Part shown: piece by piece, positions 42,539-45,650 of the stretch | Layout: each line of letters opens with the position of its first letter | Numbering within the stretch: the first letter of the stretch is position 1 | Assembly: GCA_945862985.1 (NCBI GenBank) | Contig: CAMAZF010000001.1 | Location: forward strand, 124,001 to 188,000 | Length of the DNA stretch: 64,000 bases | Origin: Bordetella parapertussis | Lineage (GTDB): Bacteria > Pseudomonadota > Gammaproteobacteria > Burkholderiales > Burkholderiaceae_A | Reading direction: 5' to 3' | Program-made: the position numbers and the translations under genes | Notes under the pieces: generated by a model | Seen by the model: the letters and a program-made list of their open reading frames with translations, nothing else | Database searches by the model: none | What the model was told of the DNA's origin: nothing

Positions 42539-42802
42539 TCAGCCCGATGTCTGACCCGCTTCGAGCTGAATGAGCCGAGCCTCCAGTCTCGCAATCTGCT
42601 CCATGGCTCGTTCAAGCTGGCGGCGCTGACCTTCAAATTCCTCTTGCCGGACCAGCTCGAAGCGGTCCGCCAAGCCCGCCAATAAGGTTTGGACCAGCTG
42701 ACTTCGATCGGCCTGTGACATGGTCTGGGTCAGCGTCTGCAGACGCTGCTGGAGATCAGCCAGATGGGCTGCGAGATCGGGAGGAGTGAATGCCATGGAC
42801 AT
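42539..42802 (-). CDS. ubiK: Ubiquinone biosynthesis accessory factor UbiK (BMFP family)
   Basis: Small coiled-coil protein of 87 residues (85 from the second ATG). LADLQQRLQTLTQTM and the C-terminal REEFEGQRRQLERAMEQIARLEARL helix match the BMFP/YqiC family; UbiK assists the ubiquinone-synthesis complex with UbiJ. Start ATGs are at 42802 and 42796. A TAGAAT box at 42804-42809 favours the second as a leaderless start. It is divergent from the porin operon and 34 bases before comM in the same direction. Confidence 0.85.
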   Translation of the reverse strand: MSMAFTPPDLAAHLADLQQRLQTLTQTMSQADRSQLVQTLLAGLADRFELVRQEEFEGQRRQLERAMEQIARLEARLIQLEAGQTSG

Positions 42803-42831: not shown

Positions 42832-42848
42832 TGCACCAGAACTGTTCG
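42832..42848 (+). promoter_or_regulatory. NtrC-like site 1 upstream of porin-glnK-amtB
   Basis: TGCACCAGAACTGTTCG matches 12 of 17 positions of the NtrC consensus TGCACCA-AAA-TGGTGCA. Its centre is about -151 relative to the start point predicted from the sigma-54 promoter. The left half-site is perfect and the right half weak. Confidence 0.5.
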
Positions 42849-42873
42849 ATCCCAACCCTGACGACCCGGCTTG

Positions 42874-42890
42874 CGCACCACAAGAGTGCA
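42874..42890 (+). promoter_or_regulatory. NtrC-like site 2 upstream of porin-glnK-amtB
   Basis: CGCACCACAAGAGTGCA matches 13 of 17 positions of the NtrC consensus, with both GCAC and GTGC arms at the right spacing. Its centre is about -109, the classic enhancer distance. A further GCACCA half-site occurs at 42898-42903. Confidence 0.6.
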
Positions 42891-42964
42891 ATTCTTCGCA
42901 CCACGGGGGGGAGCGACGGAGCGTTCGAATGAGATCCTGCATGAAATTCAATGAGTTACCGTCG

Positions 42965-42980
42965 TGGCATGGCTTTCGCT
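42965..42980 (+). promoter_or_regulatory. Sigma-54 promoter of the porin-glnK-amtB operon
   Basis: TGGCATGGCTTTCGCT fits the sigma-54 consensus TGGCAC-G-N4-TTGC(A/T): GG at 42966-42967, GC at 42978-42979, exactly ten bases between. The predicted start is near 42991, giving a leader of about 23 bases with AGGAG at 43001-43005. Two NtrC-like sites lie upstream, so nitrogen-limited activation by NtrC and RpoN is expected. Confidence 0.75.
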
Positions 42981-43013
42981 AATCGGGATGACCTATTGAA
43001 AGGAGAACTCGAA

Positions 43014-43754
43014 ATGCGCAAGACACTTTTGGCCATTGCCATCGCAGCCGCCTCAACATCGGCCTTCGCTCAAGCAGCACCCGCTGCAGAACCCGACTAC
43101 AGCATCGCTGGAAACTTTGCCATCACCAGCGACTATCGCTACCGTGGGGTCAGTCAGTCCGATCTGTTGCCAGCAGTGCAGGGTGGCATTGATTACACCG
43201 CCAAGTCTGGCCTTTACCTTGGGAACTGGAACAGCAGCATCTCTGAATGGACGAGCTTCAGTGGCGCGGGCGTGGAAATGGACTTCTACGGCGGCTACCG
43301 AACAGAGGTTGGAGGCATTGGGCTCGACGTTGGCAACCTTTATTACTACTACCCGGGTGCAGTGGGCTCGATCAAGCCCCACACCAATGAGGTCTATTTC
43401 GCGCTGTCCCACGGAATCCTCTCATTCAAGACCTCCTACGCCACGTCAGAGTACTTCGGGGTGGCAGGGTCCAAGGGCACGATGTACTTCGATCTCACCG
43501 CCAGCACGGAAATCGCACCGGGGGTGACCGGTAAGGTTCACCTCGGTCAGGTCAAGGGCAAGGGAGACATGGTGGATGGGACCGACTACCTGGTCGGTGT
43601 CAGCACCGATCTCTCTGGCTGGACAGTCAGCGCTGCATGGGTCGGCACGTCCGGAGACCTCAAGGACTTCACCAGCGGTCAGCAAGTCTCGGAGGGCAAG
43701 TTCAAAGACCTGGGCAAGTCTGGCCTCATGGTCTCCATCTCCAAGTCGTTCTAA
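43014..43754 (+). CDS. TorF family putative porin
   Basis: Outer-membrane beta-barrel of 246 residues. The signal peptide MRKTLLAIAIAAASTSAFA is followed by YSIAGNFAITSDYRYRGVSQSD, the signature of the TorF (TIGR02001) group, and it ends in a C-terminal phenylalanine (SISKSF) as barrel proteins do. ATG 43014 has AGGAG eight bases upstream. It heads the sigma-54-controlled unit with glnK and amtB, so it probably lets nitrogen compounds through the outer membrane; that role is inferred from context. Confidence 0.88.
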   Translation: MRKTLLAIAIAAASTSAFAQAAPAAEPDYSIAGNFAITSDYRYRGVSQSDLLPAVQGGIDYTAKSGLYLGNWNSSISEWTSFSGAGVEMDFYGGYRTEVGGIGLDVGNLYYYYPGAVGSIKPHTNEVYFALSHGILSFKTSYATSEYFGVAGSKGTMYFDLTASTEIAPGVTGKVHLGQVKGKGDMVDGTDYLVGVSTDLSGWTVSAAWVGTSGDLKDFTSGQQVSEGKFKDLGKSGLMVSISKSF

Positions 43755-44147
<393 letters not shown>

Positions 44148-44173: not shown

Positions 44174-45580
44174 ATGAAACCCATCTCTTCCTTATACGAA
44201 GCCGTGTCTGGCAAAGGGCTGATGTCAGGCCTGATTGCCGGACTCGGCCTCATCGCACTCCCCGTACTCGCACAGTCCACCCCCGAGGCAGCAGCTGTGG
44301 CCTCCGCCGTCGCGGAGGCCGCGCCAGCAGCCGCAGAGGCAGTCAAAGCCGAAGTCGTCAAAGGCGATGTGGCCTGGATGATGGTGTCTACCCTGCTCGT
44401 AACGTTTATGGCCATTCCAGGTCTTGCCCTGTTCTACGGTGGTCTTGTACGGACCAAAAATATGTTGTCCGTTCTCATGCAGGTGATGGTCGTCTTCTCT
44501 TTAATCTCCATTTTGTGGGCCGTGTATGGCTACAGCCTTGCGTTTACCGAGGGCGGGCCGATCATCGGAGGATTCTCAAAGCTATTCCTCTCTGGTGTCA
44601 CCATGGACTCACTCTCCGACACCTTCACCGACACGGTCAAGATTCCAGAAATGATCTTCATTGCGTTTCAGTGCACATTTGCAGGAATCACCTGTGCACT
44701 CATCGTGGGATCGTTTGCTGAGCGAGTGAAGTTCTCTGCGGTCTTACTTTTTTCGGTGCTCTGGTTCACTTTTTGTTACCTGCCGATCGCGCACATGGTC
44801 TGGGGTCCCGGTGGTTACTTGCTCGATAAGGGCGCGCTAGACTTTGCTGGTGGCACCGTGGTGCACATCAATGCAGGCGTCGCAGGCCTCGTTGGCGCCT
44901 ACATGCTCGGCAAGCGTGTGGGTTTTGGCAAAGAGCCGATGCCTCCTCACTCGCTCACCCTGACCATGGTCGGTGCCTCCATGCTCTGGGTGGGATGGTT
45001 TGGATTCAACGCGGGCTCTAATCTGGAAGCGACTGCTGGTGCAACCCTTGCCTTTGCCAACACCCTCTTCGCTACCGCTGCTGCCGTGCTGGCTTGGTGT
45101 GCAGGTGAGGCCATTTTCCGTGGGAAAGCCTCTATGTTGGGTGCAGCGTCTGGTGCAGTGGCTGGACTGGTCGCGATCACCCCTGCCTGTGGCTCTGTCG
45201 GAATCATGGGTGCAATTGTGATCGGCGCGCTGTCAGGACTGATCTGCCTCTGGGCAGTGTCCGTGCTCAAAAAGATGCTGGGTGCCGACGACTCCCTCGA
45301 TGTCTTCGGTGTCCACGGCGTAGGCGGAATCCTAGGGGCACTGCTGACGGGTGTCTTCACCGCGCCTTCTCTGGGTGGCACTGGCGCTGAAGATTTCTCA
45401 ATGGCCTCTCAGGTCGCAATTCAGGCGGAGGGCGTGATCATTACGATCGTCGTCTCCGCTGTGGTCGCTGCAATTTCTTACAAGCTTGTGGACATGATTG
45501 TCGGGCTGCGCGTGACGGAAGAAGAAGAGCGCGAAGGCCTGGACGTCAGCACCCACGGCGAAAAAGCGTATTACATGTAA
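44174..45580 (+). CDS. amtB: Ammonium transporter AmtB
   Basis: Ammonium channel of 468 residues. It has a cleaved-type signal sequence (about 1-34), an Ala/Glu-rich linker (35-65), then eleven membrane helices with GLALFYGGLVRTKN, the conserved HMVWGPGGYL and GGTVVHINAGVAGL histidine region, and FGVHGVGGILGALLTG. It works with GlnK. A 9-bp perfect hairpin lies in the linker coding region. A strong terminator follows. Confidence 0.95.
   Translation: MKPISSLYEAVSGKGLMSGLIAGLGLIALPVLAQSTPEAAAVASAVAEAAPAAAEAVKAEVVKGDVAWMMVSTLLVTFMAIPGLALFYGGLVRTKNMLSVLMQVMVVFSLISILWAVYGYSLAFTEGGPIIGGFSKLFLSGVTMDSLSDTFTDTVKIPEMIFIAFQCTFAGITCALIVGSFAERVKFSAVLLFSVLWFTFCYLPIAHMVWGPGGYLLDKGALDFAGGTVVHINAGVAGLVGAYMLGKRVGFGKEPMPPHSLTLTMVGASMLWVGWFGFNAGSNLEATAGATLAFANTLFATAAAVLAWCAGEAIFRGKASMLGAASGAVAGLVAITPACGSVGIMGAIVIGALSGLICLWAVSVLKKMLGADDSLDVFGVHGVGGILGALLTGVFTAPSLGGTGAEDFSMASQVAIQAEGVIITIVVSAVVAAISYKLVDMIVGLRVTEEEEREGLDVSTHGEKAYYM
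44299..44320 (+). repeat. Perfect hairpin inside amtB
   Basis: GGCCTCCGC 44299-44307 pairs with GCGGAGGCC 44312-44320 around CGTC, inside the Ala/Glu-rich linker codons. Alanine-rich GC codons make such repeats more likely by chance, so a regulatory role is uncertain. Confidence 0.4.
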
Positions 45581-45618: not shown

Positions 45619-45650
45619 GGCCTGCGGCATCGTCCGCAGGCCTTTTTTTT
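45619..45650 (+). terminator. Rho-independent terminator after amtB
   Basis: GGCCTGCGG 45619-45627 pairs perfectly with CCGCAGGCC 45634-45642 around CATCGT, followed by eight T residues (45643-45650). This is the clearest terminator in the window and separates the nitrogen operon from gshA. Confidence 0.95.

Follow-up and report, generated by a model that had tools for sequence, protein, structure and literature searches.

Nitrogen control of related operons and porins

In Herbaspirillum seropedicae, the nlmA(orf1)-glnK-amtB operon is NtrC-dependent and strongly induced under nitrogen limitation, 21-fold for amtB::lacZ, according to PMC3023670, which cites Noindorf et al. 2006. The same paper describes NlmA as a membrane-associated and probably periplasmic protein of unknown function. 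The gene order given there is that of porin-glnK-amtB in Bordetella parapertussis, while the porin family in B. parapertussis is a predicted outer-membrane barrel. The likeness between the first genes is drawn through two Herbaspirillum relatives (L130 and L136), in which a PF09694 (Gcw_chp) protein precedes glnK together with a sigma-54 promoter and a dyad. Since a Gcw_chp protein occupies this position in both Herbaspirillum genomes, NlmA very probably belongs to the PF09694 porin family.

Nitrogen control of a porin has also been reported in Burkholderia cenocepacia, where BCAL3473 is induced by nitrogen depletion, is affected by NtrC, and takes up amines and arginine (PMC10117139, PMC5491218). 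Unlike the B. parapertussis porin, BCAL3473 has not been described within a glnK-amtB operon, and the spacer of its -24/-12 element is extended (PMC10117139, PMC5491218). In Paraburkholderia phymatum, the PII gene located upstream of amtB is preceded by a predicted RpoN site (PMC5979394).

The original prediction for the B. parapertussis locus was that an outer-membrane porin and the ammonium channel share nitrogen control. This is supported by the conserved sites described below and by the NtrC dependence of the equivalent H. seropedicae operon (PMC3023670), but the porin-glnK-amtB arrangement is already known from Herbaspirillum and is mostly ordinary. Additions to what is known are the retention of the promoter directly before glnK-amtB in porin-less genomes and the presence of a BBP2 barrel in four genomes.

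Organization of the B. parapertussis locus

The window analyzed here is a stretch of 64,000 nucleotides of B. parapertussis DNA. Upstream of the regulatory stretch, a divergent UbiK-like (BMFP) gene lies on the minus strand with a probable start near 42802. On the plus strand, the gene for a TorF-family putative porin (TIGR02001/PF09694; 43014–43754) is followed by glnK, encoding a PII signalling protein (43809–44147), and by amtB, encoding the ammonium channel (44174–45580). The three genes share one strand and the order of the nlmA-glnK-amtB operon, and an intrinsic-terminator-like hairpin with a T-run is located 3' of amtB on the plus strand (45619–45650). No sigma-70-like site has been found on the plus strand between 42500 and 45700. 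Based on the terminator and on the lack of a sigma-70-like site in this region, porin, glnK, and amtB look like a single operon. A longer porin reading frame from 42951 has been rejected because its first codon would lie 5' of the predicted transcript start; the start at 43014 has a ribosome-binding site and a signal peptide.

Between the porin gene and glnK, there is a GC-rich hairpin (GCCCCACC...GGTGGGGC, 43761–43787), and similar hairpins occur in some relatives. Its z of -1.9 is not clearly outside the range of chance, and such a hairpin is not universal, with 18 of 61 cases below z -2 when simple shuffles are used. It could tune the level of the porin relative to those of GlnK and AmtB.

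The sigma-54 promoter

A sigma-54 -24/-12 promoter, TGGCATGGCTTTCGCT, was originally predicted on the plus strand at 42965–42980. Its GG-N10-GC spacing is read directly from the DNA and stands in a TGGCAY...TGC context; the predicted start is near 42991. Scoring against an RpoN matrix, the check proposed with the prediction, puts TGGCATGGCTTTCGCT first of the ~128,000 positions that the window has when both strands are counted; the matrix is approximate and was drawn up from the generally known consensus. No other sequence in the window matches TGGCAYRN4TYGCW perfectly. In genome-wide scans with fixed patterns (2.17 Mb), this motif has four perfect matches, one each at the porin promoter, upstream of flgB, upstream of the gene for a sigma-54 activator, and within a helicase gene. 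A control scan with the pattern reversed gives three matches in the genome, and the pattern count alone is therefore not significant; the evidence lies in the position of the match.

A weak IHF-like match with one mismatch (ATTCAATGAGTTA) is found on the plus strand at 42946–42958. IHF-like matches occur in 15 of 90 regions, compared with a mean of 5.7 in shuffles, and the presence of a putative IHF site here is suggestive only.

NtrC-like sites and their probable activator

Two NtrC-like sites precede the promoter on the plus strand, their centers being counted from +1 at the predicted start (42991). The proximal site, CGCACCACAAGAGTGCA (42874–42890), is centered at -109 and is a perfect GCAC-N7-GTGC dyad that agrees with TGCACYANNNTRGTGCA at 12 of its 14 fixed positions. 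The distal site, TGCACCAGAACTGTTCG (42832–42848), is centered at -151 and matches 10 of 14. The two are 42 bp apart, or about four helical turns. With a matrix made from the dyads of orthologous regions, excluding the B. parapertussis genome, they rank first and fifth, respectively, of ~64,000 window positions, although the core of this matrix is fixed by selection since it was built from exact GCAC-N7-GTGC dyads. The paired sites that had been proposed at -109 and -151 are thus recovered by their ranks, with the qualification that the right half of the distal site is degenerate in the B. parapertussis genome.

A possible third half-site, also part of the original prediction, lies at 42897–42913 on the plus strand (center -86). 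It is weak, ranking only 51st with the matrix from other genomes, but a relative of the same genus (L024) has a site at a similar place: its three sites are located at -173, -134, and -114 from the ATG, compared with -174, -132, and -109 from the ATG in B. parapertussis.

The layout resembles that of the enteric glnA (glnAp2) and glnK-amtB promoters, which have a -24/-12 element and two NtrC dyads ~100–150 bp before the start. The enteric NtrC sites are found at about -108 and -140, whereas those of B. parapertussis are at -109 and -151 and the first gene is a porin.

The regulators on which the prediction depends are both encoded in the genome. RpoN is encoded once, by one TIGR02395 match above the cut-off, and a glnA-ntrB-ntrC cluster is present, with an NtrC that has the sigma-54 contact motif GAFTGA. 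Upstream of glnA, a TGGCACAGAATCTGCA promoter is accompanied by a GCAC-N7-GTGC dyad, which confirms internally what an NtrC site looks like in B. parapertussis. Several NtrC-family proteins are encoded in this genome, and one of the others might act at the upstream sites of a promoter that is still sigma-54-dependent. Such a substitution is very improbable: the dyads agree with the NtrC consensus down to the exact N7 spacing, they are seen again upstream of glnA beside ntrBC, and NtrC dependence has been demonstrated for the H. seropedicae operon (PMC3023670).

Conservation of the promoter and upstream sites

The exact GCAC-N7-GTGC dyad occurs in the window at chance frequency (2 observed, 1.89 expected), and for this reason conservation is the decisive evidence. 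The gene order, with divergent YifB and UbiK followed by porin, glnK, and amtB, recurs across the order. Of the 29 orthologous regions, 28 carry the promoter (score >10), between -49 and -78 relative to the start codon, and so do 62 of the 63 named glnK-linked loci, at -35 to -125 (score >12). The dyad is present in 21 of the 29 orthologous regions, while any other spacing from 0 to 20 occurs in at most 2; among the named glnK-linked loci, a spacing of 7 is seen in 41 of 63 and other spacings in at most 11. The sequences behind these counts are related, so that the trials are not independent, but the spacing control has equal relatedness.

Of the TorF loci without an adjacent glnK, 15 of 17 have no promoter, and in one of the two exceptions (L086) the contig ends inside the porin gene. 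The other is an Azoarcus TorF gene (L117), at which both a sigma-54 promoter and an NtrC dyad are present. No such sigma-54 promoter has been found near the start of the glnB genes. In a class-wide sample, the promoter is located upstream of most glnK loci, whether TorF is present or absent.

These observations bear on the reading that the motifs are chance matches and that the gene uses another promoter. Motif counts at chance level in both the window and the genome favor it, but the position-specific conservation in ~90 loci, with the spacing and paralog controls, and the lack of a plus-strand sigma-70-like site in the region make it so improbable as to be nearly negligible. The expected conservation of the promoter and enhancer sites before orthologous porins holds across the order and beyond. 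Judged by these sequence comparisons, the putative nitrogen-starvation switch, comprising the sigma-54 promoter and the NtrC sites, is real and well conserved.

The -12 element varies in L025, L026, L027, and L029, which belong to a single sister genus and have AGC instead of TGC or CGC. In L023, the -12 element upstream of the porin is not recognizable. RpoN is present in all five genomes despite the altered or unrecognizable element.

The porin and the proposed mechanism

The porin gene encodes a protein of 246 aa with a signal peptide. It scores 155.9 bits against TIGR02001, with a curated cut-off of 47.15, and it also matches PF09694. An AlphaFold2 model based on 28 sequences has a mean pLDDT of 87 and twelve strands. 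In fold it is most similar to outer-membrane barrels, among them the 12-stranded NanC and KdgM porins, with modest query TM-scores of 0.54–0.58 (up to 0.58 for NanC). A sequence search for a solved relative of the porin found none. The protein is predicted from the model to be a 12-stranded outer-membrane beta-barrel. From the apparent co-transcription and by analogy, we infer a link between the porin and nitrogen uptake.

Taken as a whole, the stretch at 42832–42991 is very likely the regulatory region of a TorF porin-glnK-amtB operon, in which an NtrC/sigma-54 switch controls a porin that would raise outer-membrane permeability. Under nitrogen limitation, NtrB would phosphorylate NtrC, which would bind the -109 and -151 sites of B. 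parapertussis, oligomerize, and activate the sigma-54 RNA polymerase waiting at 42965–42980. Transcription would then run from near 42991 to the terminator after amtB. The 12-stranded porin would increase the permeability of the outer membrane to a presumed cargo of ammonium or small nitrogen compounds, and AmtB, gated by GlnK, would move ammonium through the inner membrane.

By this comparison, an uncharacterized outer-membrane protein family shares nitrogen control with the ammonium channel over a large bacterial class. This suggests that nitrogen scavenging includes a step at the outer membrane, and it offers a testable role for the TorF/NlmA proteins.

Variants of the slot before glnK

The gene between the promoter and glnK is not always a TorF porin. 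Eight Burkholderiales genomes that lack the porin have the same promoter directly before glnK-amtB, and the dyad is present in seven of the eight. In four other genomes, a BBP2-family barrel (PF07642) instead of TorF lies between the sigma-54/NtrC promoter and glnK-amtB (L144:1870–3048, L146:1889–3061, and, outside the order, L173:1896–3014 and L180:324–1442). These insertions represent at most three independent cases because L173 and L180 appear closely related. The apparent lack of a porin in two further genomes (G003 and G010) is uninformative, as the contigs break off 80 and 73 bp upstream of glnK, and G008 and G009 yielded only a glnB-like gene. The porin-less and BBP2 loci together indicate a constant unit of promoter and glnK-amtB, with an outer-membrane protein that is frequent but exchangeable.

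This constancy raises the alternative that glnK-amtB are the real clients of the promoter and that the porin is a passenger between the ancestral promoter and glnK, under nitrogen control but with no specific role in uptake. The eight porin-less genomes speak for this alternative, and many glnK loci across the class likewise have the promoter without a porin. On the other hand, TorF occupies the slot not only across the order but also outside it, and its retention, along with the different barrel family occupying the slot in four genomes, suggests that an outer-membrane protein is useful there. On balance, a passenger porin is unlikely, and the preferred reading is still that of a porin contributing to permeability. 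A broader proposal is that many Proteobacteria have a dedicated outer-membrane slot behind the NtrC/sigma-54 promoter of glnK-amtB, filled by different barrel families (mostly TorF, and BBP2 in at least four genomes) and forming a matched outer- and inner-membrane line for nitrogen uptake. We put this forward tentatively, as a possibility that falls somewhat short of being probable.

The last gene of the operon also shows variation. In two genomes of the same genus (L013 and L016), glnK is followed by an ammonium transporter with only ~32% identity to the AmtB of the window, which suggests that AmtB has been replaced by another Amt type.
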